Assembly: GCF_000427965.1 (NCBI RefSeq)
Contig: NZ_ATZA01000006.1
Coordinates: forward strand, 72,360-136,359
DNA from: Olivibacter sitiensis DSM 17696
Lineage (GTDB): Bacteria; Bacteroidota; Bacteroidia; Sphingobacteriales; Sphingobacteriaceae
Direction: 5' to 3'
Length of the DNA: 64,000 nucleotides
Positions 36,700-59,720 of the stretch are shown here, piece by piece (the first letter of the stretch is position 1; each line of letters begins with the position of its first letter). The position numbers and the translations under genes are program-made. Under the pieces are notes generated by a model, which saw only the letters and a program-made list of their open reading frames with translations, searched no databases and was not told the DNA's origin.

Positions 36700-37308
36700 T
36701 TACCCGAATGAGTGGCCGATTATTATGCTGCCACCTTCTGCGATAAATTGATCTTTCAAAATCTCAAAATTGGTTGAATCGATCGGTTTCGTGGCGTTTT
36801 GTACGATGGCTGCTTTGAAACCTAGCTGAAGCGCATCTTGTGCCGTATAATACACGCAATAATCGGCCGCCAAACCACAGACGTGCACTTCTTCTACTGC
36901 CATCCCTTGCAGGTATGACCCCAGTCCCGTATTCTTTACATGTCCATTGTCGAAGAATCCACTGTAGCTGTCTATTGTTTTGTCCATGCCTTTGCGGAAT
37001 AGGGCAGCGATGGGTCTTTGGTCAAGCTGATCGGATAGATCGGCTCCTTTTGTTCCCTGTATGCAGTGGTCTGGCCATAGCGTTTGTGGCAGGCCATTTA
37101 GTTCAATTTGATCAAATACTTTGCCTCCAACATGATTGGAGGCAAAGCTTTCGTGCTCCTGCGGATGCCAGTCTTGGGTGGCTACTACCAGATCATAATG
37201 AGCCATCAGGTCGTTGATGATAGGGATAATGGCATCACCTTCATTTACGGCCAGTGCCCCGCCAGGGAGAAAATCGTATTGCATGTCTACCACAATGAGC
37301 GCTTTCAT
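36700..37308 (-). CDS. pncA: Nicotinamidase
   Basis: 202 residues. Hydrolyses nicotinamide to nicotinic acid in NAD salvage. The cysteine-hydrolase triad is D8 (VVDMQYDF), K106 (FRKGMDK) and C151 (GLAADYCVYY), with metal ligands D46, H48 and H52 in TQDWHPQEHESF and PDHC near 80. The family normally starts right at MKALIVVDMQ; upstream starts at 37314 and 37359 only add a non-conserved stretch. It lies 54 bp downstream of the oxidoreductase gene and could be the last gene of that transcript, though its role is unrelated. Confidence 0.94.
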   Translation of the reverse strand: MKALIVVDMQYDFLPGGALAVNEGDAIIPIINDLMAHYDLVVATQDWHPQEHESFASNHVGGKVFDQIELNGLPQTLWPDHCIQGTKGADLSDQLDQRPIAALFRKGMDKTIDSYSGFFDNGHVKNTGLGSYLQGMAVEEVHVCGLAADYCVYYTAQDALQLGFKAAIVQNATKPIDSTNFEILKDQFIAEGGSIIIGHSFG

Positions 37309-37362
37309 AGCCATAAAGGTGACAAATATATTTTTCCTGTGCAATAGCAGAAAAAACACTGA

Positions 37363-38787
37363 CTACACTTTGTAGAACTGTTCCCAACCTTTGACGGGTG
37401 GCGGTCCCACCAAGAGGGCATTTGCAAAGCTGTTGTTGACCACTTCCTTTTTCACAGGATCGAAATCGAACCGAGCATTTAGTCGCTGCGCGATGACGCC
37501 CAGACAAAAGACCTGGCTCAGAGGTGCCGAAATTTCAAATGGGGACCTCGTTTTTTCCTCGCCTTTGCAAGCTTTGAGGAAGTTTTCGAAATGGTTGGAC
37601 GGGGAGGTTGGCACTTCGGGAAGCTTCCCTGCCATATCCTCTGCTTTGTCCTCGGGAATGATCTGCAAGGTGCTACCGTGCGAACCGCCCTTGAAGGTGA
37701 GGTTTTTCGAGTAGATGATCTTTCCGGGATTGAGTTTTGCCGGTTCAATCTCGCCGGTACTCGGTGGGGGAATATTGGGATCGAGTCCCGAGACGCCATA
37801 TCCGTTCGGGATTGGCGGTAGGTTGTCCAGTCCGTCGTACCAATTGATCTCTACTGCTGGCATGCTTCTACGCTTAGGGAAGTGGAACTTCAATGTCGAA
37901 GACATCGGGAAGAAAAAGGAATTGTGGCCTTCCAGAAATAAGGCCTCGACTTTGGTCGGCAAGCCCAGGGCTAAAAATTCGTGCGCAGTATCGAGTATAT
38001 GTGCTCCCCAATCGCCCAATGCGCCCATGCCGAAGTCGAACCAGCAGCGCCATTGTCCATTCACGAAATCCTTGTTGTAGTTGTGCCCCCACGTCTGCAT
38101 TTGCCATATTTCCCAATCCAACGTCGCCGGAGTCGGTTCCTGTGGAGGAAAATTCTTGATATTGGGATCCCAGCCGTGCCACCTCCTAGCCAGGTTCATA
38201 TGCGCATCGATGCGTGTCACGTTTTTTATGATTCCGGCTTCATGCCAGGACTTGAACTGAAAATAGTTGGCCTCGGAATGCCCTTGGTTTCCCATCTGCG
38301 TCACCACCGTCGGGAATTTCCTTGCCTTTTGCATCAAGAGCTCGTTCTCAAAAAAAGTTCGAGCCAGTGGTTTTTCGACGTACACATGCTTGCCGAGGTC
38401 CATCGCCATCATGGCCACCGCAAAATGGGCAAAATCCGGGGTGGCTATGGACACGGCATCGATCTGGTTGCCCATCGTGTCGAACAGCTTCCGAAAATCC
38501 TGAAAACGCGGCACATCGGGAAACATTTTTTGGATTTCTAGGGTCTGCTTTGCACCCATATCTACATCGCACAGGGCAACGATGTTGCATAGCCCGGTCT
38601 TGTACAGTTCTTTGATAATCTCTGCTGCACGGTTGCCGATGCCCACGCAGGCAAGGTTTACCCGTTCGTTCGGCTTTGCCAGGCTCACCTTGCCTAGCAC
38701 ACTGTTCGACAATAACATCGCTCCTCCGGCCATTGCCGTCTTGGCAATGAAACTGCGGCGTGATAAATAATGGTTCATATAGTTCAT
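37363..38787 (-). CDS. Exported Gfo/Idh/MocA-family sugar oxidoreductase 1
   Basis: 474 residues. A Tat signal, LSRRSFIAKTAMAGGAMLLSN, sends a folded, NAD-loaded enzyme to the periplasm. Rossmann motif CVGIGNRAAEIIKEL, nucleotide/sugar-site motif VYVEKPLARTF, then the C-terminal Gfo/Idh domain with WRCWFDFGMGALGDWGAHILD. Proteins with this layout sit beside DUF1080 proteins in Bacteroidota and oxidise sugars, in studied cases to 3-keto sugars. It follows the DUF1080 gene by 27 bp. The start could also be the ATG at 38778. Confidence 0.9.
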   Translation of the reverse strand: MNYMNHYLSRRSFIAKTAMAGGAMLLSNSVLGKVSLAKPNERVNLACVGIGNRAAEIIKELYKTGLCNIVALCDVDMGAKQTLEIQKMFPDVPRFQDFRKLFDTMGNQIDAVSIATPDFAHFAVAMMAMDLGKHVYVEKPLARTFFENELLMQKARKFPTVVTQMGNQGHSEANYFQFKSWHEAGIIKNVTRIDAHMNLARRWHGWDPNIKNFPPQEPTPATLDWEIWQMQTWGHNYNKDFVNGQWRCWFDFGMGALGDWGAHILDTAHEFLALGLPTKVEALFLEGHNSFFFPMSSTLKFHFPKRRSMPAVEINWYDGLDNLPPIPNGYGVSGLDPNIPPPSTGEIEPAKLNPGKIIYSKNLTFKGGSHGSTLQIIPEDKAEDMAGKLPEVPTSPSNHFENFLKACKGEEKTRSPFEISAPLSQVFCLGVIAQRLNARFDFDPVKKEVVNNSFANALLVGPPPVKGWEQFYKV

Positions 38788-38814
38788 ATGGTTCTGTATA
38801 GGGTGAAGGATAAA

Positions 38815-40224
38815 CTATTTTGTCTTCTTGACCTTGATGCTTCGGAAAGAGACCTCGTCACCATGGTCTTGCAAGAGGATATGGCCTGTTTTTGCTTCGC
38901 CAAAATTGTCCCAATCCTTGTATTTGCTGAGTGCGACCAAGTCACGGAATTCTTTGGAGCCGCGCTCATAACTAAGCATTTTGATGCCGTTGAGGTAATG
39001 GGTGACTTTGTTGTCTGCAGTGACGACAATGCGCCCCCTGTTCCATTCCCCTATTGGACGGCGCGCCCGCTCGTCCCTGTTGGATGTAATCAGGTCGTAC
39101 AGCGAACCCAATGTACGGTTGCCGTCCCGTCCCATCTTGGCATCGGGGTGTAGCGCATCGTCCAGTACCTGAAATTCCAGGCCGATGGCCGATCCTACTG
39201 TCTTCTCCTTCAGCGTCACAAAATATTTTACGCCGCTATTAGCACCGGGCGTCAGCTTGAACTCAAACGACAGATCGAAAACAGCATACTGATCACGGGT
39301 GATGATGTCCCCGCCATTGGTGGACTCTCCTCCGTCCGACTTCAATACGGTGATCTTGCCGTCACTGACTTTCCAGCCTTTGGCGGGAAAGTCATCACTG
39401 TGGACGCTTCGCCACTGTTCCATATGCTGCCCATCGAATAGTAGGGCATATCCCGCGTTCTTTTCCACCGTGCTTAAGTCGTTGGGCTTGAGGTTGACAA
39501 TGTATGTGTCTTTGGGGAAAGCCTTGGATTTGAGCCCCTCGGTCTGTATACGTATATTTTTGAAATACACTTTCTTTCCCTGCAAGGCATCGGAGACGCT
39601 GTGTACCTGCAGGCCGATAATCCCGCTAGCGTCTACCGTATCGATCACGAAAGCCGTGGGCACGCCGTTTATCCAACTGCGCAATTCGTCTCCGATGGCT
39701 TCGATACGAACGTGGTTATATTCGCCTGCTTTGTAAGCGCTTTTTGCTTTTTCGTTCAGATCCAATGGGTAAAGCCAGCCCCTGCGTGCCTCGTCGTACA
39801 CACCGCCGGTCCAGGCACGTGCCGTGGGATCGATCTCGATCTGCCGCCCGTATAGCACGCCTTTCCCACCGTTGGCCGAAGCATCGAAGTGGCTCCTGGT
39901 CTGTATGCCCGAATTGGTCTGGTCGCCTTCCAGTTTCACTTCGAGCTCCAGGATGAAGTCGCCGTACTCCTGTTCCGTCACCAGGAACGAATTGGGCGTG
40001 CCCTTCGTCATCGTGCCTACAATGGCATCGCCCTCTACGGTATAAGGTGCATTTCCTCCTACGACTTTCCAGCCTGCCAACGTCTTGCCGTCGAATAGGT
40101 CTTTCCAGCCTTTTTTGCTGTTGGAAGTCTGGGCTTGCGCACCGTGTAACAAGCATAACAGCAGCATACCACATGCAGGAAACACTTTGTAAAAAAAGGT
40201 CAATGTTTTTCTTGTGTTCATCAT
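38815..40224 (-). CDS. Double DUF1080 (3-keto-disaccharide hydrolase/lyase-type) protein
   Basis: 469 residues, signal peptide ending LLHGAQAQ. Two DUF1080 (PF06439) beta-sandwich domains in tandem: domain 1 about 38-225 (GWKDLFDGKTLAGWKVVGG, IQTRSHFDAS, YGRQIEIDPTARAWTGGVYDE, EYNHVRIEA), domain 2 about 245-467 (ALLFDGQHMEQWRSV, FDLSFEFKLTPGANSGVKYF, IGLEFQVLDDALHPDA, GRIVVTADNKVTHYLNG). Members of this family cleave 3-keto-glycosides after a Gfo/Idh enzyme has oxidised them; the B. thetaiotaomicron pathway is the model. The two domains differ enough to have different partners or steps. It lies between two Gfo/Idh genes. Confidence 0.9.
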   Translation of the reverse strand: MMNTRKTLTFFYKVFPACGMLLLCLLHGAQAQTSNSKKGWKDLFDGKTLAGWKVVGGNAPYTVEGDAIVGTMTKGTPNSFLVTEQEYGDFILELEVKLEGDQTNSGIQTRSHFDASANGGKGVLYGRQIEIDPTARAWTGGVYDEARRGWLYPLDLNEKAKSAYKAGEYNHVRIEAIGDELRSWINGVPTAFVIDTVDASGIIGLQVHSVSDALQGKKVYFKNIRIQTEGLKSKAFPKDTYIVNLKPNDLSTVEKNAGYALLFDGQHMEQWRSVHSDDFPAKGWKVSDGKITVLKSDGGESTNGGDIITRDQYAVFDLSFEFKLTPGANSGVKYFVTLKEKTVGSAIGLEFQVLDDALHPDAKMGRDGNRTLGSLYDLITSNRDERARRPIGEWNRGRIVVTADNKVTHYLNGIKMLSYERGSKEFRDLVALSKYKDWDNFGEAKTGHILLQDHGDEVSFRSIKVKKTK

Positions 40225-40340
40225 TGGGTTTATTTTTGGGATTTATGTCTATATCTATTCTCTTTAATCATCTCGAAGCCAAAAAAACCGTCTGTGGGCT
40301 TAGACCGTCTATCCACATCCAAAATCAGCAGCCGTCTTGC

Positions 40341-41624
40341 TCAGGCCTTCGGCATCTTATACCCGTTATGGTAAGCCGCCATCAAGTAGCTGTTTGCTTT
40401 CTTGTCGGTGAATTTCCTGCCGGCGTTATCCCAAAACAACTTCTTTCCTGTCCTGTATGCGATGTTTCCCATCTGTGAAAGGATTGCGATACGGGCCCCT
40501 GCTTCGATCGGCGCGTTCAGTAGGCCGCCATCTTTTTGGCGTATCGCGTCCACGAAGTTTTGCATGTGCCTTTCTAATCCGTTGTCGGTTGCCGGTTGCA
40601 GTGGGATAGCCTCCATCTGATCCTTTTCGGGAATGACCTCCCAACCGCTTCTGTTCAACACGAGTGTTCCGTTATTGCCGATAAAGGCAATGCCGTGATT
40701 TCTGCCATAAGGCCCTTGGCCTATTTCAATGGCGTGTTCCCACTGAATATAGAAATCGTCAAATTCATATACTGCCGTCATCGTGTCAGGAGTCTCGGCC
40801 GCGCCATCCGGATTGGCAAAGTTCCCTCCAGTAGCCATGACCGATCTCGGAACGGTGGCTTTCATTCCAAGCATGGCATAATCCAACAAGTGCACGCCCC
40901 AGTCGGTCATCAGTCCTCCGGCATAATCCCAAAACCACCTGAACTCAAAATGGAAACGGTTTCTATTAAATGGTCTGGTCGGTGCGGGTCCTAGCCACTT
41001 GTCGTAATGTACGCCGGCGGGAATCGCCTCGTCTGGCTTTTGTACGATGTTTTTTTTCCAATCTACATAAGACCAGGCTTTGACGAGCCGTACTTTGCCC
41101 AGTTTTCCCGAATGAACAAAATCTATGGCATCTCGAAAATGCTGCTGGCTGCGTTGCCACTGCCCCACCTGCACGATGCTGTTATGACGACGTACGGCCG
41201 CTACCATCGCTTCACATTCGCGGATGGAATTCCCTATCGGTTTCTCCACATAGAGGTGCTTCCCGGCACTCACGGCATCGATCATCTGGAGGCAATGCCA
41301 ATGATCCGGTGTCGCGACAATGACCGCATCGACCACGTCGTCATGGAGCATCGCTTTATAGTCGATGTACGATTTGGCGTTGATGCCTCTTTGGACTAAT
41401 TCGTCCAGACGTTTTTGAAGAACGTTTTCGTCGACATCGCATAATGCGGTACAGACGACCCTATCATCCTTTAGCAAAGCGTTCAAATCAGACCATCCCA
41501 TGCCGTTTACGCCTATGAGGCCTACCCGGATCTTTGCATCTACCGACGCAAATGCGTTGGCACGCGAACAGACCGTGGAAACGGCAAGAAAAGTAGAAGC
41601 TTTCAGGAAATCTTTTCTATTCAT
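40341..41624 (-). CDS. Exported Gfo/Idh/MocA-family sugar oxidoreductase 2
   Basis: 427 residues. N-terminus MNRKDFLKASTFLAVSTVCSRANAFA resembles a Tat signal with RK in place of RR. Rossmann motif VGLIGVNGMGWSDL, CDVDENVLQKR, VATPDHWHCLQMIDA, the catalytic-site motif YVEKPIGNSIRECE and the C-terminal WFWDYAGGLMTDWGVHLLDYAM. It is only distantly similar to oxidoreductase 1, so the pair may act on different sugars or in opposite directions (oxidation and later reduction). 116 bp upstream of the DUF1080 gene on the same strand. Confidence 0.9.
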   Translation of the reverse strand: MNRKDFLKASTFLAVSTVCSRANAFASVDAKIRVGLIGVNGMGWSDLNALLKDDRVVCTALCDVDENVLQKRLDELVQRGINAKSYIDYKAMLHDDVVDAVIVATPDHWHCLQMIDAVSAGKHLYVEKPIGNSIRECEAMVAAVRRHNSIVQVGQWQRSQQHFRDAIDFVHSGKLGKVRLVKAWSYVDWKKNIVQKPDEAIPAGVHYDKWLGPAPTRPFNRNRFHFEFRWFWDYAGGLMTDWGVHLLDYAMLGMKATVPRSVMATGGNFANPDGAAETPDTMTAVYEFDDFYIQWEHAIEIGQGPYGRNHGIAFIGNNGTLVLNRSGWEVIPEKDQMEAIPLQPATDNGLERHMQNFVDAIRQKDGGLLNAPIEAGARIAILSQMGNIAYRTGKKLFWDNAGRKFTDKKANSYLMAAYHNGYKMPKA

Positions 41625-41789
41625 GAAATAATCCGTTTTTTTGAATTCTCGACAATTTGCGTTCTTTTTGTATTGGTTTTTAATGGTTATATGTATCAGA
41701 TTAACTGTCTACTTTTAATTTTATTGTTGTATTTTTCTTTTTGGTCTTGTTTTTCTCCGGCGAATGGGGCATGCCCGCTTACCTTATCG

Positions 41790-42878
41790 CTATTGAGGTT
41801 TGACCGTAGGGCCATGTATAACCAGTTGGCCATTGGGCAGAATTTCCATCTTGTCCAAAAAGACCATCCTTTCATTGCCTGTTCGGTCGGTTCGTGCATG
41901 GTAAACACACCACACCTTTCCGTCTCTGTCTTTCAATATGCTGTTATGCCCGGTACCCGAAACGACGCCACCTTCGTGTTTGTTTTTTTGCAAGACGGGA
42001 TTAGCGACGGACTTCTCAAACGGACCTAATGGGTCGCTCGATGTGGCATAGCCAACGGCATAGTTCTCGCCGGCAAAATGGTTGGCCGAGTACATCATGT
42101 AATACAACCCATCGTGCTTAAAGAGATACGATCCCTCTGTCCATCGCCTGTTGACCTCTCCCGAGGTAACCGACCGGCTTTCCCATTCGGCCTGCTTGTC
42201 GTCCATAGATAGAGGTGGACGAAGGAGCAACTGCGGCTCACCGATAACGGACGAAAAATCGCTGGCCAACTCTACGCCATAGACCCAACTTTCTTCGATC
42301 TCGTCGTATAGCCCTTTCTTGCGTGCCCAGTCTGCTATTTCGGATTCCACCGGATTTTTGTAGCAACACCTGGAATAGTATAAGTACAGTTTGTCATCCT
42401 CGCCAAAATACACATTTGCATCGATAATCGGATAACCTGGGTCAAAAAGGGGCGTTCCAGTCATGTCAATAAACGGGCCTGTAGGACTATCGGAGACTGC
42501 AACACCAATCCGGTAGTTCTCCAGTTCATTGTTGGGATTTTCTTTCCAATGCGCACTGTAGAACATATAGTATTTTCCTTCCCTTTTGTACACTTCAGGC
42601 GCCCAAAAATCTTTCGTTCCCCAAGCTTTCTCTTGCTTGGACGTGTACACTGTACCTTGAGGCTCCCATTTCCTCAGATCGTCCGAAACATAGGCCATAA
42701 ATCCGTTTTCGATTCCACCTGTACCGTACATATAGTAACGATCGGTATCCTCGTCGTACAAAATGAAAGGGTCACCAAAGGCCACATCTAAGGGATTGTG
42801 GGAAAGCTCAGCCCGTTCACCTGAACAGCCAAATAGACTAAATCCTAACCATATTACTAAAAAAAACCATCTATTCAT
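41790..42878 (-). CDS. GH43-family lipoprotein (xylosidase/arabinofuranosidase type)
   Basis: 362 residues. Lipoprotein signal MNRWFFLVIWLGFSLFGC, lipid on C18, so it is on the outer or inner membrane. Five-bladed propeller with the GH43 triad: base D36 (AFGDPFILYD), pKa modulator D153 (PIIDANVYFG) and acid E248 (RWTEGSYLFKH). Common activities are beta-xylosidase and alpha-L-arabinofuranosidase; the sequence does not decide. First gene of the minus-strand arm, divergent from the sensor kinase, 165 bp before oxidoreductase 2. Confidence 0.93.
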   Translation of the reverse strand: MNRWFFLVIWLGFSLFGCSGERAELSHNPLDVAFGDPFILYDEDTDRYYMYGTGGIENGFMAYVSDDLRKWEPQGTVYTSKQEKAWGTKDFWAPEVYKREGKYYMFYSAHWKENPNNELENYRIGVAVSDSPTGPFIDMTGTPLFDPGYPIIDANVYFGEDDKLYLYYSRCCYKNPVESEIADWARKKGLYDEIEESWVYGVELASDFSSVIGEPQLLLRPPLSMDDKQAEWESRSVTSGEVNRRWTEGSYLFKHDGLYYMMYSANHFAGENYAVGYATSSDPLGPFEKSVANPVLQKNKHEGGVVSGTGHNSILKDRDGKVWCVYHARTDRTGNERMVFLDKMEILPNGQLVIHGPTVKPQ

Positions 42879-43128: not shown

Positions 43129-46100
43129 ATGAGAATCACGAGGTTTTTGTTACAAACAGCAGGTGTCTTATACTTCACATTTCTGTGCTTTAGGACGCAT
43201 CGGGCGGTCGCGCAGACATACTATTTCAACCATTATCAAGTTGAAAATGGTCTTTCCAACAATTCCGTGCTCTGCAGTGCACAAGACAAAAATGGTTTTA
43301 TGTGGTTCGGAACCCGTGATGGACTCAATCGGTTCGACGGATACAATTTCAGGCATTTCTATGCTGATACTGAAAGCGACCATGGGTTAGGCAGTAACTT
43401 CATCCATAGTATTGCAGTCAGCAAGGACAACCAGATCTGGATAGGTACCGATCAAGGCGTCTATATATTCGATCCTAGAAAAGAACGCTTTACGACCTTG
43501 GAAGGTCTCTATGACCGGGAGATTCTCCAAATTGAAGAAGATGCCTCGGGCAACATATGGCTTATTGCTAACCACGAACTTTTTTATTATGATACGGGCA
43601 GTAAGCAGCTTCAAAAGAAAACCAACAGCGATTGGTACCACGTGTCGCATTTTTGCTTTGATAGGGATGGGGACGTTTGGGTCGGCGCGCGTAACAACTT
43701 GATTTGCCTGACAAAAAATATCGTCCACCCCCTCCCGATCGACTCCTCCATTACTATGGAGATCAAAAAACTGTACGTAGATCATAACAATGATATTTGG
43801 ATAGGGACGTCAAAAGAAGGATTGTTCAAGTACGAAGCCAAGCTGCAACATATCGACCAGATTATTGCCAATCCGCTTCCCCATGTACCCTTGTACATAC
43901 GCGATGTGATGGAGGTAGACGACAGGTCTATTTGGATCGCCTCAGAAGGGGGGCTATTTATTTATGACACACAGACAAAGGACTACCGCCTCTTACGACA
44001 TGAAAAAGACAATCCCTGGAGCATAACAGACAATGCGATCTATACCATCTCCAAGGATCATCAAGAGGGTATTTGGATTGGCACATATTTTGGCGGGGTG
44101 CATTATTATCATCCGCAACACACCTATTTTGAGAAGATATTCCCACGATCTAAGCCCAATTCGATCCGCGGATATGTCATCCGTGAAATGGTTGAAGACC
44201 GCCACCACAATCTCTGGATAGGTACAGAAGACCAAGGGCTTACGTTCTGGAATCCGCGCGAAAATAGCTTTGAGACGTTGGGTCAAAGCAACCATTTGGC
44301 GCACAGTAATATACATGGTATGGCTGTCAGTGGAGACAGCCTTTTTGTCGGTACGTTCCATCAGGGTATGGACGTCATCGATATCCGTACCCACAGGGTG
44401 GTTAAACACTTCGATGTCAGAAACACCAATGGTGCCCTTGGTGATAATTTCGTGTTCTCAATTTACCGTACGCGCGCCGGCCGTATCCTTTTGGCCACTT
44501 CACGCGGGGCATACGAGTTTTTTCCCGGACAAGACCGCTTTCAGCCCATAGCACATCTACAAAAACATATCTTCTACACCTCGATTTACGAAGATAGGGT
44601 AGGAAACATCTGGCTATCGACTTGGCGGGACGGCGCCATCAGGCTTTCTCCCCAGACTGGTGACCTCCTTCGTTTTGCGCATGAGGCCCAGGACAAACAA
44701 TCGCTCAATAGTAACCGCGTCAATCGTGTATTCCAGAATTCAAAAGGTGAAATATGGATCGCAACCGAAAACGGGATAGCCATATGGAACGAAAAAACGA
44801 ATAAATTTCGCAGGATCACTAAGGAGGACGGCCTTCCCAGCAACCTGATCCTTGGCTTTGAGGAAGACGATGACCAAAATCTCTGGATCAGCACCTCACG
44901 TGGATTGGTCAAAATGAACACCCGCAGGTATAGCATCGAAGTGTTCGACACGGAATTGGGGCTTTTAGGCCTACAGTTCAACTATAATTCGGCCTTTAAG
45001 GATACTCAAGGCTATCTTTACTTCGGTTCGTCTCGCGGCCTGATCCGTTTCAATCCGCAACTCATGACCGACCGTTATAAGACCAACCCGGAAACGCCTA
45101 TCTACATCACCGGTATACAAACCCATCAACGCGAATTGACAATTGGAGGCACGGATGGACATCTCCAACAATCTGTCATCTATACGGATCAAATCGTATT
45201 GAACCACGATGAATCGACGATCAGCATCGATTTTGCCGCATTGAATTTTGTGGCAGCCAAGTCTACCTCCTATCTTTACAGGCTGCTTGGCCTTGATACC
45301 GCATGGACTTTTTTGCGAAGCAACGGGAAAGCTCATTTTACCAAAGTCCCTCCAGGGAATTACACCTTTCAGGTCATGGCCGCTGATGCCAATGGCACCC
45401 CTATTTCGCAAAGCAGGTCACTCCATATCCGTATTAAACCGCCGCTGTGGGCCAGCACGCCGGCGTACGCTACGTACTTGTTCTTGGCACTATGTATAAT
45501 ATGCTATGTTGTATATCTATATGATCGCCGCATCAAAGAGAAGAATAGAAGACGGCTTGAAATCATCAAAAGCCATAAAGAACAGGAACTTTATAAGGCC
45601 AAGATGGATTTTTTCATGCGCATTACCCATGACATCAAGACACCTCTGACGCTGATAAAAGGCCCTTTGGAAAGGATCATCCATGGAGCCCCAAAAGAAA
45701 AAACGGACAAATGGTTGCATACTATCCATCAAAACACGGAAAAGCTGCTTACGCTGACGGACAACCTTCTGGACTTTAGAAAAATCGAGAGCAATCAATT
45801 TTCGCTACGGCTCCAGCCACATAGAATCAGCAAACTGCTACAATTATGCCTTCAAGAGTTCTCGCCGCTGATAGAAAGTAAAAAACTCATTCTCCAGACG
45901 GATCTGGACGAAGTAGAAGCGGATATAGATATCGAGACCATCTACAAGATACTGACCAACCTCTTGTCCAATGCAATTAAATATGCCGACCAAACGGTGC
46001 AGGTGACCCTAAAGGAAGATCTGGGCAATCAGACCTTCCGCGTTGAAGTAAAAAACGATGGTGTCCGACTTACCGAAGAAGATATCCAACAGATATTCAA

Positions 46101-46254
46101 ACCCTTTCAACGGGCCTCTTCGCATTTTAGAATCAAGGGGTCGGGACTGGGCCTGGCCTTGGCCCATTCTTTTGCAACATTGCATGGAGGTTCACTCCTG
46201 TACGTTGACAACTCAGAAAATTTGAATATATTTGTTTTAGAAATACCATTATAG
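43129..46254 (+). CDS. Propeller-type sensor histidine kinase (sensor half of an HTCS)
   Basis: 1,041 residues. Signal peptide (to about residue 28, AVAQ), then two-component-regulator propeller repeats from about 35 to 690 (YQVENGLSNNSVLCSAQDKNGFMWFGTRDGLNRFDG is the first, with many IWIGT blades), a Y_Y_Y domain (about 700-775, YLYRLLGLDTAWTFL), one membrane helix (about 783-802) and a cytosolic HisKA/HATPase unit: phospho-acceptor H834 in ITHDIKTPLTLI, N box LTNLLSNAIKYA and G2 box GSGLGLALAHS. The protein ends right after the HATPase (FVLEIPL). In usual HTCS proteins a receiver and AraC domain follow in the same chain; here they are the next gene, 5 bp away in another frame. Confidence 0.93.
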   Translation: MRITRFLLQTAGVLYFTFLCFRTHRAVAQTYYFNHYQVENGLSNNSVLCSAQDKNGFMWFGTRDGLNRFDGYNFRHFYADTESDHGLGSNFIHSIAVSKDNQIWIGTDQGVYIFDPRKERFTTLEGLYDREILQIEEDASGNIWLIANHELFYYDTGSKQLQKKTNSDWYHVSHFCFDRDGDVWVGARNNLICLTKNIVHPLPIDSSITMEIKKLYVDHNNDIWIGTSKEGLFKYEAKLQHIDQIIANPLPHVPLYIRDVMEVDDRSIWIASEGGLFIYDTQTKDYRLLRHEKDNPWSITDNAIYTISKDHQEGIWIGTYFGGVHYYHPQHTYFEKIFPRSKPNSIRGYVIREMVEDRHHNLWIGTEDQGLTFWNPRENSFETLGQSNHLAHSNIHGMAVSGDSLFVGTFHQGMDVIDIRTHRVVKHFDVRNTNGALGDNFVFSIYRTRAGRILLATSRGAYEFFPGQDRFQPIAHLQKHIFYTSIYEDRVGNIWLSTWRDGAIRLSPQTGDLLRFAHEAQDKQSLNSNRVNRVFQNSKGEIWIATENGIAIWNEKTNKFRRITKEDGLPSNLILGFEEDDDQNLWISTSRGLVKMNTRRYSIEVFDTELGLLGLQFNYNSAFKDTQGYLYFGSSRGLIRFNPQLMTDRYKTNPETPIYITGIQTHQRELTIGGTDGHLQQSVIYTDQIVLNHDESTISIDFAALNFVAAKSTSYLYRLLGLDTAWTFLRSNGKAHFTKVPPGNYTFQVMAADANGTPISQSRSLHIRIKPPLWASTPAYATYLFLALCIICYVVYLYDRRIKEKNRRRLEIIKSHKEQELYKAKMDFFMRITHDIKTPLTLIKGPLERIIHGAPKEKTDKWLHTIHQNTEKLLTLTDNLLDFRKIESNQFSLRLQPHRISKLLQLCLQEFSPLIESKKLILQTDLDEVEADIDIETIYKILTNLLSNAIKYADQTVQVTLKEDLGNQTFRVEVKNDGVRLTEEDIQQIFKPFQRASSHFRIKGSGLGLALAHSFATLHGGSLLYVDNSENLNIFVLEIPL

Positions 46255-46259
46255 ATCTT

Positions 46260-47039
46260 ATGAAGACTGATTTTTTTTCCGAGAAATCGACGATTCTTTT
46301 GGCAGATGACCATCAGGAGATCCTCGACTTTATTGCGGACGATTTGGAAGAACAGTATGAGATCATACAAACCTCGAACGGAAAAGAGGCATTAGACTAT
46401 TTGCAGGTAAATGATGTAGACCTGATTGTTAGTGACGTTATGATGCCCGTAATGGACGGTTACGAATTTTGCACCAAAATCAAGGAAGATATATACTTCA
46501 GCCATATTCCTTTCATCATGCTTACAGCCAAGAACAGCCTGCAATCAAAAATTGAGGGCCTGGAGTACGGTGCCGACGCCTACATCGAAAAACCTTTCTC
46601 TCCGCACTTTCTGCAGGCACAGATTGCCAGCTTGCTGCGCAATAGGAAGCATGTGCATGAGCATTACCAAAACACACCTTCTGCCCCTCTGGATAGTATC
46701 GCACACAACAAGTCCGACCAAGTTTTCTTAAAAAAGCTAAACAGATTGATCCTCGAAAACATTTCCGAACCATCTTTGTGCGTTGATATGTTGGCGGAGC
46801 ACATGTACATGAGCCGGCCTACGCTCTACCGCAAGATCAAGGTGCTCTCGGATCTGTCGCCCAACGAGCTGATCAATGTCACGCGGTTGAAATGCGCAGC
46901 ACAGCTCCTATTGGAAGGCGAATACAGGATCTATGAGATTGCCCATAAGCTTGGATTCAGTACCCCCTCACATTTTACCAGAAATTTCCAGAAACGATTC
47001 GGTATGAGCCCCAAAGAGTACGTGGCGGGCAGGCAATAG
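46260..47039 (+). CDS. Response regulator with AraC-type DNA-binding domain
   Basis: 259 residues. Receiver domain 10-125 with acidic pocket LLADDHQE, phospho-acceptor D59 (LIVSDVMMPVMDGYEF), T89 region MLTAK and K111 (IEKPF). AraC/XylS helix-turn-helix pair from about 155: LCVDMLAEHMYMSRPTLYRKIK and IYEIAHKLGFSTPSHFTRNFQKRFGMSPKEY. It corresponds exactly to the C-terminal third of a hybrid two-component regulator and is the obvious partner of the preceding kinase. Likely targets are the flanking susC operons; candidate direct repeats lie at 47614-47664. Confidence 0.94.
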   Translation: MKTDFFSEKSTILLADDHQEILDFIADDLEEQYEIIQTSNGKEALDYLQVNDVDLIVSDVMMPVMDGYEFCTKIKEDIYFSHIPFIMLTAKNSLQSKIEGLEYGADAYIEKPFSPHFLQAQIASLLRNRKHVHEHYQNTPSAPLDSIAHNKSDQVFLKKLNRLILENISEPSLCVDMLAEHMYMSRPTLYRKIKVLSDLSPNELINVTRLKCAAQLLLEGEYRIYEIAHKLGFSTPSHFTRNFQKRFGMSPKEYVAGRQ

Positions 47040-47880: not shown

Positions 47881-50800
47881 ATGATGAACAAACTTATACA
47901 AGCTTTTGCCTTGGCCCTGGCAAGCCTGATGATTGCAGACGCTTCGTGGGCACAAGCCCAAGGAGTGAGGATTTCAGGAACGGTCAGCACCGAACAAGGA
48001 AGCCCGCTTGCTGGGGTAAGCGTAACGATCAAGGGGGCTAATTCGGGGACTACCACAAATGGCGACGGTATCTACACGATTGAGGTGTCCGATGGCTCTG
48101 CTACCCTGATATTCTCATCTACGGGATACAGCACACAGGAGGTTCAGGTACAAAACCGAACATCCATCAATGTTACACTAGAAGTGGATATTCAGGGCTT
48201 GGATGAAGTGGTAGTAGTTGGCTACGGTACCATGCAGAAAAAAGATCTTACTGGTTCCGTCATCCAAGTCCGCCCGGACAGAATAGCAAACGAAAATCCA
48301 CGAACCGTACAGGACATTTTGCGGGGAACGCCGGGCCTGAATGTTGGCTTTAATTCGTCGGCAAAAGGAGGTGGGACTTTGCAGATACGCGGACAGCGTT
48401 CCGTATATACAGATGGTAATCATAATAGCCCATTGATCGTTCTGGATGGTATGTTCTTTTATGGGGAGCTATCCGAGATCAACCCCGACGACATCGATCA
48501 GATCGACGTATTGAAAGATGCTTCTGCCGCAGCCGTTTATGGGTCGAGAGCTGCCAATGGCGTGATTATTATTTCGACCAAACGGGGTAAACCGGGCAAG
48601 CCGGTTGTCAATATGACGGCCAATTTGGGCGCTACCGGTCCAGCTGATTTTCGCAGAAGGTGGAACACGGATGAATATATGCAACACCGTGTGGATTGGC
48701 TGACTAAGAACACCTATGGTGTCAATCCAGAAACTGGTGCATACGAGGCTTACCAGACTGGTGTGTTTGCCAATCAACCAGGCTTTTTTATGCGACCCGA
48801 TCAGTTACCGGCAAACATCTCGCTCGATAGTTGGCGCGCATACAGCACCAATGAAACGGGGGAGTCCGATTTAAGCATTTGGGCAAGGCGGTTAGGTTTT
48901 ACGGGTAATGCCCTGCAAAATTTTCTCAACGGTAAAGTAGAGGATTGGACCGATCGCACCTTTCGAACGGGACTGGATCAAGACTATAATGCCAGTGTCA
49001 GCGGTGCAAGCGAGCGCACGAACTACTATTTCTCCATGGGCTACCTGAAAAACGAAGGTACTGTTGTAAGCGATAACTACCGGGCGGTACGCGCCAATAT
49101 GAAGGTGAACTCCAACGTTACCGACTGGTTCGAAATCGGGGCCAATGTCAATTTCCAGGACCGTTCTGATGGCAATGTAGACATCGATATGGATCAGATG
49201 ATGCGCAACAGTCCCTATGCCGACTATGACGATGGGATGGGCAATCCCATACAATTTCCATTGAGCTCCGAATTTAGCCAAAGAGGCTACAACTACGATT
49301 TTCAAAGGCAATTTTTGGAATTAGACAAAGGTTACACGATATTCAACACGATCTTGCAGGCGAAGGTCAAGTTGCCTTTCAATATCACCTACTCCTTTAA
49401 CGCGTCGCCTCGCTATCAATTTTTCTACGATCGCTATTTCATGTCGGCAGATTTACCGGGATCTGATCCCAAAACCCGCGGAGCCAACCGCGAGCAGGCC
49501 AAACGTTTTGACTGGTCATTGAACAATACCGTTACTTGGGATCACACGTTTGCAGAGAAGCATCGTTTCAACGTGACGCTGGTACAGGAAGCCGAGCAAC
49601 TGCGGTCCTGGCAAGAGCGTATCGAAGCGCGAAATATCCTACCTTCAGATGCCTTGGGTTTTCATGGCGTAGGTTTTGGCAATAAAGAGGAAAGTAACTA
49701 TTCCAGTGACGATACGAATCAAACAGCCGATGCCCTTATGGCACGTTTGTTCTACAACTACGATGAGCGCTACATGCTGACAGGAACCATCCGGAGGGAC
49801 GGCTATTCGGCCTTTGGGGCATCTAATCCCTACGCTACATTTCCATCTCTAGGAGCTGCATGGACTTTCTCCAACGAAGGTTTCTTTAAAAATTGGAATC
49901 ATGTCATGAGTTCCGGTAAATTACGTGTATCCTACGGTCGAAACGGTAACCGCTCCCTGGGGTCACCTTATTTGGCGCTTGCCAACCTCTATCGCGGAGC
50001 GGGAAGGATGCAAGGCTACATTGATGCCTCTGGCCAGATGCTGCAATATCGCTATCTGATGATGGACCGATTGGCTAATCCGAACCTGCAGTGGGAAAAA
50101 ACCGCTGCTTGGAATTTTGGATTGGATTTCGGCTTCCTCAACGACCGCATATCCGGTACGCTCGAATATTACAATATGAAGACTCACGATATGATCATGG
50201 GTCAACGTTTGCCGGGCTTCTCGGGATTCAGTTCGATAACCACCAATCTAGGGCGTGTGGATAACAGCGGGATAGAAGTTGCGCTAAATACACTTAATGT
50301 GGAAAAGGAAAATTTCCGGTGGTCTACCATCGTTGGATTTTCATACAATAGGAACCGAATCAAACACTTGTACTTTGACTACGAAGACATTGTGGATGCG
50401 GACGGGAATGTGACCGGTCGTAGAGAAAGAGACGATCTTACAAATGGCTGGTTTATAGGTCAATCGATCAATACCATCTGGAATTACCGAGTTACTGGAA
50501 TCTGGCAGACAGATGAGATCGAAGAAGCGGCAAGGTACGGTCAAAAACCCGGCGATCCCAAGGTAGCCAACAATTATACGGCAGACGACGTGGTCAATGC
50601 AGATGGCTCTGTAACGCATGTCTACAATGATCGGGATAAAGAATTTCTGGGCGAAACGGTCGCGCCCTATCATTGGTCTTTGCGCAACGAGTTTGTCCTA
50701 TGGAAAGACCTGACCTTCTCCTTCCAGATTTACTCCTATATGGGGCATAAAAGCTTATCGGGTAATTACCTGAACAACGATGACGATGGCGGACGTATGC

Positions 50801-51126
50801 AATACGCATTGGCCAATCTACCGGCAAAGGAATATTGGACTCCCGATAACCCGACCGATAAATTCGGACGTATCGAGGCTTCGGGGCCTATTGGCGCTGC
50901 TGGAGCCCAAAAATTGTATAACCGTTCTTTCATTCGGCTGGATAATATTTCCGCAGGATATACCCTGCCTCGGCGATGGACATCCATGTACAATCTAAGT
51001 CAGGTCAAAGTGTTTGCTGCCGTACGTAACACGGCCACTTGGGCGCAGGAATGGATATATGGTGATCCCGAAACTGGCTCGTGGGCATCACGCACCTTTA
51101 CCATGGGTTTGAATTTAACTTTTTAG
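47881..51126 (+). CDS. SusC-family TonB-dependent oligosaccharide transporter
   Basis: 1,081 residues. Signal peptide ending DASWAQAQ, carboxypeptidase-like domain (VRISGTVSTEQGSPLAGVSVTIKGANSGTTTNGDGIY, in blocks GTVSTEQGSPLAGVSV and GTTTNGDGIYTIEV), TonB box region LDEVVVVGYGTMQKKDLTGSV, plug with LQIRGQRS, LIVLDG and EINPDDIDQIDVLKDASAAAVYGSRAANGVIII, then a 22-strand barrel ending FTMGLNLTF. It imports oligosaccharides across the outer membrane using TonB energy. First gene of susC-susD-GH105; likely switched on by the kinase/regulator pair upstream. Confidence 0.96.
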   Translation: MMNKLIQAFALALASLMIADASWAQAQGVRISGTVSTEQGSPLAGVSVTIKGANSGTTTNGDGIYTIEVSDGSATLIFSSTGYSTQEVQVQNRTSINVTLEVDIQGLDEVVVVGYGTMQKKDLTGSVIQVRPDRIANENPRTVQDILRGTPGLNVGFNSSAKGGGTLQIRGQRSVYTDGNHNSPLIVLDGMFFYGELSEINPDDIDQIDVLKDASAAAVYGSRAANGVIIISTKRGKPGKPVVNMTANLGATGPADFRRRWNTDEYMQHRVDWLTKNTYGVNPETGAYEAYQTGVFANQPGFFMRPDQLPANISLDSWRAYSTNETGESDLSIWARRLGFTGNALQNFLNGKVEDWTDRTFRTGLDQDYNASVSGASERTNYYFSMGYLKNEGTVVSDNYRAVRANMKVNSNVTDWFEIGANVNFQDRSDGNVDIDMDQMMRNSPYADYDDGMGNPIQFPLSSEFSQRGYNYDFQRQFLELDKGYTIFNTILQAKVKLPFNITYSFNASPRYQFFYDRYFMSADLPGSDPKTRGANREQAKRFDWSLNNTVTWDHTFAEKHRFNVTLVQEAEQLRSWQERIEARNILPSDALGFHGVGFGNKEESNYSSDDTNQTADALMARLFYNYDERYMLTGTIRRDGYSAFGASNPYATFPSLGAAWTFSNEGFFKNWNHVMSSGKLRVSYGRNGNRSLGSPYLALANLYRGAGRMQGYIDASGQMLQYRYLMMDRLANPNLQWEKTAAWNFGLDFGFLNDRISGTLEYYNMKTHDMIMGQRLPGFSGFSSITTNLGRVDNSGIEVALNTLNVEKENFRWSTIVGFSYNRNRIKHLYFDYEDIVDADGNVTGRRERDDLTNGWFIGQSINTIWNYRVTGIWQTDEIEEAARYGQKPGDPKVANNYTADDVVNADGSVTHVYNDRDKEFLGETVAPYHWSLRNEFVLWKDLTFSFQIYSYMGHKSLSGNYLNNDDDGGRMQYALANLPAKEYWTPDNPTDKFGRIEASGPIGAAGAQKLYNRSFIRLDNISAGYTLPRRWTSMYNLSQVKVFAAVRNTATWAQEWIYGDPETGSWASRTFTMGLNLTF

Positions 51127-51145: not shown

Positions 51146-53164
51146 ATGAAGAAGATAACACAACAATTAACTCGTATATTATTTGCCCTACTTATGGGGG
51201 GCACCTTATTGGGAAGCGGCTGTTCGCGGGATTTTCTGAACCCCGATCCGCTATCGTTCTACGAACCCAATACCACGTTTAATACCAAATCTGGTCTGGA
51301 GGCCGCCCTGGCCATTTGTGACCGTCACCTCAAATTGTATTGGATGACAGACCACAATGAAATGCTCTCCTTGGGTACGGAATATATCTTTTCCGAGCTG
51401 ATGGTAGCCGCAGCGACTGACAAGCGCAACATGCTCGCCGATGTGGCCAATATGCTTACACCTACCAGTGATGATAGTGGTCCCCAAAACAACTTGGATA
51501 GAACCAATAGCCTATGGTATTTTTGGGACGAAACATACAAAGGTGTCATGTATGCCAATACCGTTCTTCATTATGTAGACGATGTAGAGGAATTGGACGA
51601 AGCCACGAAAAATATGTTTAAAGGTAGGGCTTACTTTCACCGTGCTTTTAGATACCTCGCCTTGGTATTCCAATACGGCGATGTCCCGCTTGTGACTAAA
51701 TTATTGGAGGTGCCTAAGCAAAACTACCGCACCACCGAGCGCGATGCCATTCTGCAAATGATAACCCAAGATATGGAATTCGCAGTAGAGTGGGTGCCCA
51801 ATCAGAGTCAGATTGGCGTAATCGGTATGGTCAATAAGGGTGCTTGCCGGATGTTGCTGGCAAAATGTTATTTGGCCATTGGAGAGTACGCCAAAGCCAA
51901 GGAGCAAACCGATATCCTGATCGATCAGTCTGGATACGCCCTCATGGAAAATACTTTCGGCACATTTAATGATGGTGGCGAGCCGCAGACCTGGCCCATC
52001 ACCCGCAACGTGATCTGGGACATGCACCGCTCCGAAAACAAGCTGATCGCAGCAAATAGGGAACTCATCATGGGTATGCCCAATCGCGGAGCCGAGGCGG
52101 AGTCATTCGTTAAAATGCTGACCATGCGTATTTTGTATCCCTTTGTTTTCGACAATAGGTTACAGGCTAAGGATGGTAGACAGGCCCTGCTAAATATCAG
52201 ACGCAATACGGCGGACTACAACCCACAATACGACTACATGCGGGCTTTCGGACGCGGTATTGCGACTTTTCGCCCCACGCGCTTTCACATGACCGGTCTT
52301 TGGTATGTTAACGGCGTTTTGGACGAAACCGACCTGCGCCATAGCTCCGAAACGGGCAACTGGATACGCATGGAAGACTACCGGGTAAATAATAGGGCAT
52401 CAACGGAATTTGGCGAACCCCTCACGCTTTTCAATCCCGACAATGGTACCCTGTTGTGCAGTGATACCATTCGCCGCTGGTTTGACGTGCCCCATTACAA
52501 ATTCTTTTTGGATGATCCTGTCGCTGAAGCAAATATCGTCGGGTCTGACGGACACCGTGGAGCCACAAATGGAGGCCATGCGGACTGGTATCTTTACCGT
52601 TTAGCGGAAGCATACCTCCTAAGGGCAGAAGCCAAATACTATATAAACCCTGGTGACCCTACTATTAAGGATGACCTAAATGCCGTGAGGCAGCGGGCAC
52701 AATGCAGCCAATTATATGAAGGCGCCGTTACCATCGGTGACATTATGAACGAACGTGCACGCGAATTGTATTGGGAAGAATGGCGCAATGTGGAGCTAAA
52801 ACGCGTATCGTTGTGCCTGGCCCGTAGTGGTAGACCCGACGAATGGGGCAATACGTACAACTTGGCCAACTTTGACAAGCAAAGCGGCACAGATGCCGCT
52901 GGTGGAAGCTATTGGTATCAACGTATTGTACACTACAGCATGTATAACAAAGGGCCTATTCAGATAGACGCTCCCGGCAATAGCAACCCCAACTACACCA
53001 TGGACAAAAAGAATATGTACTGGCCTATTCCAAACTCGGCAATTACCGCTAACATGAGAGGACGGCTCAGCCAAAACTATGGCTATGATGGCTATGATCC
53101 CACTACGCCCAAATGGGATAATTGGGAAGATGCCGTGGCAGATGAGAGTAGCGCATCAGATTGA
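51146..53164 (+). CDS. SusD/RagB-family glycan-binding lipoprotein, large form
   Basis: 672 residues, longer than most SusD proteins (about 500-600). Lipoprotein signal ending TLLGSGC, lipid on C26. SusD core: RDFLNPDPLSFYEPNTTF, YFHRAFRYLALVFQYGDVPLVTKLLEVPKQNYRTTERDAILQMITQDMEFA in blocks, MLLAKCYLAIGEYAKAKEQTDILI (TPR), and the C-terminal WYLYRLAEAYLLRAEAKYY and RARELYWEEWRNVELKRVSL. It forms the hinged lid of the SusC channel. 19 bp after susC. Confidence 0.95.
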   Translation: MKKITQQLTRILFALLMGGTLLGSGCSRDFLNPDPLSFYEPNTTFNTKSGLEAALAICDRHLKLYWMTDHNEMLSLGTEYIFSELMVAAATDKRNMLADVANMLTPTSDDSGPQNNLDRTNSLWYFWDETYKGVMYANTVLHYVDDVEELDEATKNMFKGRAYFHRAFRYLALVFQYGDVPLVTKLLEVPKQNYRTTERDAILQMITQDMEFAVEWVPNQSQIGVIGMVNKGACRMLLAKCYLAIGEYAKAKEQTDILIDQSGYALMENTFGTFNDGGEPQTWPITRNVIWDMHRSENKLIAANRELIMGMPNRGAEAESFVKMLTMRILYPFVFDNRLQAKDGRQALLNIRRNTADYNPQYDYMRAFGRGIATFRPTRFHMTGLWYVNGVLDETDLRHSSETGNWIRMEDYRVNNRASTEFGEPLTLFNPDNGTLLCSDTIRRWFDVPHYKFFLDDPVAEANIVGSDGHRGATNGGHADWYLYRLAEAYLLRAEAKYYINPGDPTIKDDLNAVRQRAQCSQLYEGAVTIGDIMNERARELYWEEWRNVELKRVSLCLARSGRPDEWGNTYNLANFDKQSGTDAAGGSYWYQRIVHYSMYNKGPIQIDAPGNSNPNYTMDKKNMYWPIPNSAITANMRGRLSQNYGYDGYDPTTPKWDNWEDAVADESSASD

Positions 53165-53206: not shown

Positions 53207-54310
53207 ATGTGTAAGAAAGCAGTCATCTTATTATTCCTTTTTCCTGTTCGGCTCCTGTTTGCCCAGCATAAAGAATTGACAGACTTCCCAAAGGGATATG
53301 TGCCAGGGGAAGTTGGTAAACTTATCGCTTATCACTTTGTGAATGGCAGGCATGATCTCTATGCTGGTCAATATATACATTATGCCGAGGTATGTACCTG
53401 GATCGGTGCTTTGGACTATGCCGTGAAGACCAATGACCGCAAGCTTATCAAGCTTCTGCAGGATAAGTTCGAGCCGTTTTTTACATATGAGCGTGCCTTG
53501 TTGCCTCCTATGAACCATGTGGACTACAATATGTTTGGGAGCCTCGCCCTGAAACTGTACCAAGTGACAAAAGACGAACGCTACAAAAAAATGGGGTTGG
53601 AATATGCCGATACACAATGGGAAGTGCCGCAGAATGCCAAGGCCGAAGAAAAAGCCTGGGCTGACAAGGGCTTTTCCTGGCAGACACGCTTGTGGATTGA
53701 CGATATGTACATGATTACCGTAGTGCAGGGCGAGGCATATAAAGTGACTGGAGACTGTAGATATATTGATAGGGCGGCAAAAGAAATGGTGCTCTATCTG
53801 GATGAGTTGCAACGTCCGAACGGGCTTTTCTACCATGCGCCAGATGTTCCATACTATTGGGGACGGGGAGACGGCTGGATGGCGGTAGGCATGCCCAATC
53901 TGTTGCGTTTACTGCCCGAAGACCACAAAGACCGTCCACGTATTAGGGAAGGTTACTTGAAAATGATGAATAGCCTGAAAGATTATCAGCAACCGAGTGG
54001 CATGTGGAACCAGTTGATCGATGAGCCGAGCTTTTGGGCGGAAACATCAGGAACAGCCATGTTTGCTTATGCTTTTATCGTTGGCGTGCAAGAAGGATGG
54101 CTGGATGTCACAGAATATGCTCCAGCAGCTCGCAAAGCCTGGTTGGCGATGATTCCGTACATCGACTCTCGCAACAACGTGACAGAAGTCTGCATTGGGA
54201 CTGGCAAAAAGAACGATAAGCAGCACTACCACGACCGTCCACGCAATCCGGGAGATCTTCATGGGCAGGCACCATACCTTTGGTGCGCTGCCGCCCTGCT
54301 TGCAAAATAA
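53207..54310 (+). CDS. GH105/GH88-family unsaturated uronyl hydrolase
   Basis: 367 residues, signal peptide ending RLLFAQ. An (alpha/alpha)6 barrel with the GH105 features GFSWQTRLWIDDMYMITVVQGEAYKVTGD (catalytic Asp in WIDDMYM), APDVPYYWGRGDGWMAVGMPNLLRLLP and AETSGTAMFAYAFIVGVQEGWLD. The family hydrates and releases 4,5-unsaturated galacturonyl or glucuronyl residues made by polysaccharide lyases. No lyase is visible in this window, so it either uses products made elsewhere or acts on another unsaturated or uronate unit. Its stop is 14 bp from that of the convergent GH3 gene. Confidence 0.92.
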   Translation: MCKKAVILLFLFPVRLLFAQHKELTDFPKGYVPGEVGKLIAYHFVNGRHDLYAGQYIHYAEVCTWIGALDYAVKTNDRKLIKLLQDKFEPFFTYERALLPPMNHVDYNMFGSLALKLYQVTKDERYKKMGLEYADTQWEVPQNAKAEEKAWADKGFSWQTRLWIDDMYMITVVQGEAYKVTGDCRYIDRAAKEMVLYLDELQRPNGLFYHAPDVPYYWGRGDGWMAVGMPNLLRLLPEDHKDRPRIREGYLKMMNSLKDYQQPSGMWNQLIDEPSFWAETSGTAMFAYAFIVGVQEGWLDVTEYAPAARKAWLAMIPYIDSRNNVTEVCIGTGKKNDKQHYHDRPRNPGDLHGQAPYLWCAAALLAK

Positions 54311-56733: not shown

Positions 56734-56745
56734 GAAGATTTTCTG

Positions 56746-57816
56746 TTAGGGATTTACGGCTTCTAATATACGATAATAGGCCGTCTTTCTCTGATAGTTT
56801 TCGTCAAAAGGTAATGGCCAGTCGGGCCGTTCATAGCGACCGGTAATCCAAGTATCGGCATCCGACACGTTCCATGTGGTGATGCCATGGCGTAAGGTGT
56901 CGGCAATGTTGTGAAATGTGCGCGCTATATGAAAATATTTTTGCGCCTGCTGACTTTGTATGGCGGGAGTATAAGTCAGGTTGGGGTCGTTGTTTGGGTT
57001 GACGGCAATGTCCAGTTCGGAGATGTGTACCATCAATCCAGTGGCTGCCGCGCTGGTGATGGCTGCTTCGTGAAAGTTGTCTTCGCGGTTGAATCGCGTA
57101 TGCATTTGCATGCCGATGCCGTGGATGGGTATGTTCCTGTTTTTGAGTCCCGTTACCAGATCTACGATGGCATTGCGTTTGGTGGGGCCAAATTCATTGC
57201 CATAATCGTTGTAGAAAAGTAAGGCATCTGGGTCGGCCTCATGCGCATATTCAAAGGCGCGCGCAATGTAGTCGGGTCCAAGGTTGCTAAGCCAAAGAGA
57301 TTCTCTAAGACCATGCCCGTCATTGTCCAGTGCTTCATTGACGACATCCCAAGATGCTACTCTGCCCTTGTAGCGGGTAACAACGGTCTGGATATGCGTT
57401 TTCATGATGTTTTCCCAAGCGGCCGAGTCGCCCTGAAAGCTGGTAATCCAGTCGGGCAGGTTCTGGTGCCAAACGAGATTGTGCCCATGCACCCTCATGT
57501 CGTGCTCTTCGGCAAAATCGACCAGGTAATCGGCATCGGCCCAATCATAGGTGTTTTGCTGCGGGTGTATGAAACGTATTTTCATGGCATTTTCTGCCGT
57601 CACGCTATTGAATTCCTCAATGACCAAATTGCGGTAGGCTGGTCTGTTTTTCAATAGATTTATGTTTACTGCAGCCCCAAAAGGGAAAGGAGAAAGGTTG
57701 CGGAGGCTGGTATCCGCTGTCTGCTCTTCTTCTGGCTCGGGGTTATTATCGGCAATGGGCTGCTTGTTGCAGTCAAAAACCAATAGGCCGATGATGAACG
57801 AAGTGAAAATTTTCAT
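56746..57816 (-). CDS. GH10 endo-1,4-beta-xylanase
   Basis: 356 residues. Cleaves internal beta-1,4 bonds of xylan. The short N-terminal hydrophobic segment ends in cysteine (LLVFDC, C16); the Asp before it makes the lipobox atypical, so lipidation is uncertain. A Pro/Glu-rich linker (PEPEEEQTAD) precedes the (beta/alpha)8 barrel: FNSVTAENAMK, VHGHNLVWHQNLP, acid/base E161 in SWDVVNEALDND, FYNDYG, GIGMQMHT, nucleophile E267 in VHISELDIAV and TWNVSDADTW. No carbohydrate-binding module is inserted. 28 bp after the GH2 gene. Confidence 0.96.
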   Translation of the reverse strand: MKIFTSFIIGLLVFDCNKQPIADNNPEPEEEQTADTSLRNLSPFPFGAAVNINLLKNRPAYRNLVIEEFNSVTAENAMKIRFIHPQQNTYDWADADYLVDFAEEHDMRVHGHNLVWHQNLPDWITSFQGDSAAWENIMKTHIQTVVTRYKGRVASWDVVNEALDNDGHGLRESLWLSNLGPDYIARAFEYAHEADPDALLFYNDYGNEFGPTKRNAIVDLVTGLKNRNIPIHGIGMQMHTRFNREDNFHEAAITSAAATGLMVHISELDIAVNPNNDPNLTYTPAIQSQQAQKYFHIARTFHNIADTLRHGITTWNVSDADTWITGRYERPDWPLPFDENYQRKTAYYRILEAVNP

Positions 57817-57843
57817 GTCAAGGTTTTTTAGGGGTTAGTAGTT

Positions 57844-59673: not shown

Positions 59674-59720
59674 ATATAAGTGTTGTTGGTGTTGTTATGC
59701 CTTGCTTTTTACTTTTTTCA

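Follow-up and report, generated by a model that had tools for sequence, protein, structure and literature searches.

Gene organization of the locus

The window analysed here is a stretch of 64,000 nucleotides from Olivibacter sitiensis AW-6T / DSM 17696, an aerobic member of the Sphingobacteriaceae from olive-mill waste (PMC4149018), and lies in an assembly of 5,053,571 bases in 110 contigs. The original prediction described two differing Gfo/Idh/MocA oxidoreductases (here GfoA and GfoB) around a protein with two DUF1080 domains, beside a GH43 lipoprotein and a sensor. That description holds, in that the reverse-strand order is GH43 > GfoA > DUF1080 > GfoB, all four frames are open, and the Pfam assignments are above cut-off (Table 1). 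The gaps along this four-gene block are 165, 116 and 27 bases. Promoter and terminator scans gave a signal no higher than in shuffled sequence, and no Bacteroidota-type promoter was found inside the gene gaps of the arm.

Table 1. Features of the locus, with positions in the window and the evidence for each assignment
Feature	Position	Strand	Evidence
GfoB, Gfo/Idh/MocA oxidoreductase, predicted NAD-dependent glycoside-3-dehydrogenase	37363-38787	-	Pfam, PDB matches, ortholog alignment
Two-domain DUF1080 (PF06439) protein, predicted 3-keto-glycoside eliminase/hydratase	38815-40224	-	Pfam, PDB/fold matches
GfoA, second, different Gfo/Idh/MocA oxidoreductase	40341-41624	-	Pfam, PDB matches, fold match to AL3
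GH43 lipoprotein, first gene of the arm	41790-42878	-	Pfam; closest solved relatives 4qqs, 3kst
Sensor histidine kinase with a periplasmic propeller (propeller/Y_Y_Y), of the HTCS type but lacking a receiver, divergent from the arm	43129-46254	+	Pfam
Response regulator, receiver and AraC DNA-binding domain, partner of the sensor	46260-47039	+	Pfam
SusC1 TonB-dependent transporter	47881-51126	+	Domain scan, orthologs
SusD1 lipoprotein	51146-53164	+	Orthologs
GH88/GH105-type unsaturated uronyl hydrolase	53207-54310	+	Pfam; orthologs
Neighbouring separate locus: GH3, GH10, GH2, SusD2, SusC2	54325-64000	-	SusC2 and its own hybrid sensor run beyond the window

The GH43 protein scores 182 bits against PF04616 and has a lipobox, LFGC, in which C18 is conserved. 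Directly downstream of GfoB is a nicotinamidase (PncA) gene (about 36700-37359). It was considered as a source of NAD for the block, but as it is a neighbour in 0/80 of the related loci described below, its position here is probably due to chance.

Conservation of the block in other genomes

In public genomes, 80 named loci were found to encode a protein closely related to the DUF1080 protein of the window. In 76 of them a Gfo gene is no more than two genes away from the two-domain DUF1080 gene. Since the whole O. sitiensis genome has only 10 Gfo/Idh/MocA matches, two of which flank the DUF1080 gene, the pairing exceeds chance. GfoB orthologs are near the DUF1080 gene in 54/80 loci, and those of GfoA are present in 16/80, in every case directly upstream of DUF1080; the DUF1080-GfoB pair is the widespread core, and GfoA is an optional, locus-linked part. 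Where both flanks are complete, a GH43 ortholog is near 10 of 14 loci with GfoA compared with 1 of 50 without it (Fisher p = 7e-8, a value that ignores shared ancestry). The order GH43 > GfoA > DUF1080 > GfoB, in some cases with a further GH43 gene after the first, is contiguous in nine named Sphingobacterium species (L080, L081, L088, L095, L097, L101, L106, L107 and L124). S. micropteri is among the Sphingobacterium that have the block. The original prediction had tied 3-keto-glycoside-type proteins to a SusC/SusD locus with GH43 and had proposed a check of co-occurrence in other genomes; the conserved gene order in these species, together with the GH43 counts, bears out the association.

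A SusC1 ortholog, with SusD1 where the stretch reaches that far, is divergent from the block in L095, L097, L101, L106, L107 and L124, while a same-type sensor is divergent from it, as in the window, in L080, L081 and L088; orthologs of the window sensor adjoin the arm in these three loci and in L108. Among the 14 full-flank GfoA loci, SusC1 is thus present in six and the same-type sensor in four. The SusD1 orthologs (77-87% identical) are from Sphingobacterium and one other Olivibacter, and in the relatives the GH88/GH105 gene comes after SusD1 or a sulfatase gene. The stretches around the SusC1/SusD1 orthologs contain GH88 genes 61-83% identical to that of the window and, in various combinations, sulfatase, more GH43, GH130-like, GH63/MGH1-like and BNR-repeat genes.

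An alternative is that the cassette is a general degrader of disaccharides and small glycosides, like BT2157-BT2159 of Bacteroides thetaiotaomicron, which sits beside the locus by chance, such that its neighbourhood would be little guide to its substrate. The DUF1080-GfoB pair is indeed present in most of the fetched Sphingobacterium loci in unrelated surroundings (e.g. L076-L078), many of them without any SusC1/SusD1, and further DUF1080 genes are present elsewhere in the O. sitiensis genome. However, a subset of loci shows a specific association of the pair with GfoA and the GH43 ortholog, next to SusC1/SusD1 or the same-type sensor, and the block is common to two genera; we consider this alternative unlikely, though it is the best of those considered here. 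The block being in service of the SusC1/SusD1 locus is, from conserved gene order, likely.

Several other arrangements were observed. In L076-L078 (about 3800-12800) the DUF1080-GfoB pair is directly behind an apparent rhamnose catabolism operon (RhaT, aldolase/dehydrogenase, isomerase-like and kinase genes, as annotated in L078; the layout in L076 and L077 is alike). In Pedobacter (L130-L155, e.g. L133:8545-12911) a two-domain DUF1080 gene lies between two Gfo genes and adjoins a valyl-tRNA synthetase gene; the layout is similar to that in the window, but the dehydrogenases are different, being merely 25-30% identical to GfoA/GfoB. GfoB of Sphingobacterium sp. T2 (L120:11470-12826) appears as two overlapping frames, a possible frameshift.

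Four other Olivibacter genomes have GfoA orthologs (64-67%), with GH43 nearby in 4/4 and GH88 in 3/4. Taken together, the two of these loci that were annotated further contain BNR_4, GH3 and GH127 genes and one for a BT_3657-like arabinosidase. No DUF1080 gene was found near these GfoA genes within the stretches read, so the GfoA-DUF1080-GfoB triplet is not obligatory, and the fact that GfoA accompanies GH43/GH88 even without DUF1080 supports its link to glycans. SusD1 relatives (52-87%) with GH88 and sulfatase genes are present in three other Olivibacter genomes.

In a tree of 111 DUF1080 sequences, the window copy falls within a Sphingobacterium clade (fork 99*), nearest to the S. chungjuense/S. 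corticibacter group, the arrangement of which is alike (support 83); the other Olivibacter copies (99*) and a second O. sitiensis copy branch elsewhere. Transfer of the block between genera is plausible from this topology, and an old duplication may be the alternative. A recent horizontal transfer was rejected as a firm reading, because the housekeeping yardstick BipA (89% identity) is no less similar than the block genes and because relatives of GfoA and SusD1 are present in other Olivibacter.

Two other O. sitiensis contigs have related genes. On contig C67, where a second gene for a two-domain DUF1080 protein (60% identical) is located, an adjacent 143-residue frame (L011:10685-11116, reverse strand) corresponds to the start of GfoB (40% over residues 1-85) and its end (58% over 401-474), as if the middle 300 residues had been deleted; its neighbours include GH78, GH5 and FAD oxidoreductase genes. 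Contig C3 has a second cluster, Gfo-Gfo-DUF1080-DUF1080 (L012:4518-11247, forward strand), which encodes one protein of about 1137 residues with two DUF1080 domains, similar long proteins being present in several other members of the family.

The two oxidoreductases

Both GfoA and GfoB have PF01408 and PF19051 above cut-off. The top PDB sequence matches of both are 8tdf/8tdh (1.1e-51 for GfoB, 5.7e-35 for GfoA), which are titled as the Alistipes glucoside-3-dehydrogenase AL3, one structure having trehalose bound; the same entries are the top fold matches of the GfoA AlphaFold model (mean pLDDT 84). Residues of catalytic type, i.e. the lysine of an EKP motif (K139 in GfoB, K128 in GfoA) and a DxxxH motif (D259/H263 and D241/H245, respectively), align between the two proteins and 8tdf, and are invariant among orthologs.

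The curated cut-off of the NCBIfam model for glycoside-3-dehydrogenases of the BT_2158 family (NF058561) is 750 bits, and the scores of GfoB (278.5 bits) and GfoA (166.8 bits) are far under it. They are thus relatives, not certified members, of that family, and for this reason their substrate, or even their reaction, may differ from that of BT2158.

The proposal that both oxidoreductases are exported is supported for GfoB, the predicted twin-arginine signal of which (SRRSFIAK) is conserved, with S9, R10, R11 and F13 kept in at least 97% of 55 orthologs. For GfoA, the N-terminus of which (MNRKDFLK) has an R-K version of the motif, not the canonical R-R, the route of export is less sure.

The two-domain DUF1080 protein

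PF06439, DUF1080, the Pfam name of which is now '3keto-disac_hyd', matches the middle protein of the block in two stretches (278 bits against a cut-off of 26.8), defining domain 1 (residues about 36-230) and domain 2 (about 245-469). Domain 2 matches the BT2157 structures 8tda, 8rr2 and 9fbe, the titles of which name a '3-keto-2-hydroxy-glucal hydratase' and a '3-keto-glycoside eliminase/hydratase', as well as Parabacteroides 3hbk. It has the HPD and QDHGD motifs of the solved eliminase/hydratases, near-invariant in 111 orthologs. In domain 1, HPD is absent and a diverged QVH aligns with the QDH of domain 2, but domain 1 has near-invariant residues of its own, such as YDExRRxW. Since each keeps near-invariant residues, both domains are under constraint, and their differing motifs suggest differing roles.

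The protein also has a full-length, collinear match to BT3469 (4jqt; 434 bits over residues 39-469), to which it is related by fold as well (E 5.7e-50, 49% identity in the fold alignment), the two-domain architecture being shared over the full length. To our knowledge no activity has been reported for BT3469, and its function is unassigned. Hydration is separable in a B. thetaiotaomicron lyase, in that its H275N variant loses hydration (PMC13273386). The two-domain protein may allow elimination and hydration to be separated, perhaps by mutating each domain in turn. We take H275 of the lyase to be, probably, the His of QDHGD, judging from its position near the C-terminus.

Gfo/Idh/MocA folds include GH109, and fold comparison found the DUF1080 fold to be similar to CBM66, so it might be envisaged that the Gfo proteins are NAD-dependent GH109-like glycosidases that carry out all steps in one active site, with DUF1080 having mainly a binding or accessory role. 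By contrast, the best matches are stand-alone glucoside-3-dehydrogenases, the GH109 structure 6t2b matching GfoA far more weakly (1.9e-9) than AL3 does, and domain 2 retains the motifs of the solved eliminase/hydratases, making a GH109-like mechanism improbable.

Relationship to the GH10 locus

The original prediction assigned the arm to a xylan locus together with the GH10 genes, with hydrolytic GH10/GH3/GH2 and oxidative enzymes acting on one xylan and the oxidative set dealing with rare linkages. This assignment is not sustained. Outside the window (locus L016) the SusC2 unit continues to a 1373-residue hybrid sensor with kinase, receiver and AraC domains, and since each unit has its own sensor, the window contains two abutting polysaccharide loci, not one. 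At the thresholds used, GH10 and GH3 relatives are absent from 80/80 loci, with no GH10 relative closer than 10 kb to the block; of 20 genomes with such loci, 14 have GH10 relatives, but these are elsewhere in the genome and no more than 49% identical. The conserved partners of the block (GH88/GH105, sulfatase, other GH43, SusC1/SusD1) do not read as xylan enzymes. In favour of the assignment are that the two loci touch (54310/54325) and that O. sitiensis has been reported, from its genes, to be xylanolytic (PMC4149018); against it are the separate sensor, the missing GH10 linkage, the GH105 and sulfatase partners, and the further GH10 genes on another contig (C32). A xylan attacked by both sets is very unlikely, as is xylan as the substrate of the block, and it was rejected as their common substrate.

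Proposed pathway and substrate

We propose, with a probability of roughly 0.6, that the block breaks glycosidic bonds in the periplasm by oxidation, elimination and hydration, and that it does so in the service of the SusC1/SusD1/GH105 locus and not of the adjoining GH10 locus. That its chemistry is of the 3-keto-glycoside type is, from the motifs and structural relatives, probable. We infer the activities, the substrate and the order of steps, and also how the two Gfo proteins, and the two domains of the DUF1080 protein, share the work, as follows. Oligosaccharides would be imported by SusC1/SusD1, and arabinose-like and unsaturated uronic residues would be removed by GH43, as a surface or periplasmic lipoprotein, and by GH105. 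An exposed sugar would then be oxidised at C3 by GfoA and/or GfoB with bound NAD+. Elimination and hydration would follow, as in the known pathway, the order of which is oxidation, elimination, hydration, reduction (PMC13273386). By analogy, one of the Gfo enzymes may carry out the closing reduction of the 3-keto sugar and so restore NAD+, giving a redox-neutral cycle.

The GH88/GH105, sulfatase and additional GH43 genes of the related loci tentatively suggest, at slightly under even odds, a substrate glycan that is acidic and bears arabinose. Of the genes expected in an arabinogalactan locus, neither a rhamnose-glucuronate lyase (BNR_4/GH145) nor an exo-galactanase was found among the scanned locus genes in the window; where BNR_4 was seen, it was in a related locus of another species.

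A bolder and rather unlikely version of the proposal is that the fused DUF1080 protein has two active sites and needs no partner for its own steps, one domain eliminating and the other hydrating, and that it with the two Gfo proteins as dehydrogenase and reductase would form a complete redox-neutral, non-hydrolytic glycosidase in a SusC/SusD locus, moved between genera as a block.

Comparison with known systems and implications

What is known of the enzymes of 3-keto-glycoside metabolism concerns mostly disaccharides and small plant glycosides. Nasseri et al., in Nature in 2024, reportedly described such a pathway comprising BT2157/BT2158/BT2159 of B. thetaiotaomicron and AL2/AL3 of Alistipes, to which PDB entries 8tda, 8tdf, 8tdh, 8v31, 8rr2 and 9fbe belong. 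Like the window block, that pathway has an exported Gfo dehydrogenase and a DUF1080 eliminase/hydratase; the window block differs in having a fused two-domain DUF1080 protein between two different Gfo genes, in the addition of GH43, a sensor and SusC/SusD, and in the absence of a PF01261 (TIM-barrel lyase) gene from its four genes, PF01261 genes being present elsewhere in the genome. BT2158 is a periplasmic glycoside 3-dehydrogenase required for growth on trehalose, leucrose and palatinose (PMC11300592), and BT2157 has been described as a 3-ketotrehalose hydrolase (PMC9007349). The 3-keto-lactose route of Caulobacter and Pedobacter, which uses LacABC and DUF1080, is similar in that periplasmic C3 oxidation is followed by DUF1080 cleavage, but its dehydrogenase is the membrane-bound LacABC and there is no polysaccharide locus (PMC9007349).

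The B. plebeius arabinogalactan loci, which have a GH145 lyase, GH105 and a sulfatase (PMC8406133), are similar to the related Sphingobacterium loci in GH105, GH43 and sulfatase, and to the Olivibacter GfoA loci in BNR_4, GH88 and GH43. They are not known to include an oxidoreductase/DUF1080 step, and the window differs from them in having no lyase.

The chemistry and enzyme families of the block are thus already known (PDB entries; PMC9007349; PMC11300592), whereas in the open-access literature we found no description of DUF1080 or Gfo 3-keto enzymes placed in a SusC/SusD locus. The block represents a defined four-gene set with a testable substrate. It is conserved across species together with GH43, GH105, SusC/SusD and a sensor of its own, which suggests that environmental Bacteroidota break bonds oxidatively inside polysaccharide loci.
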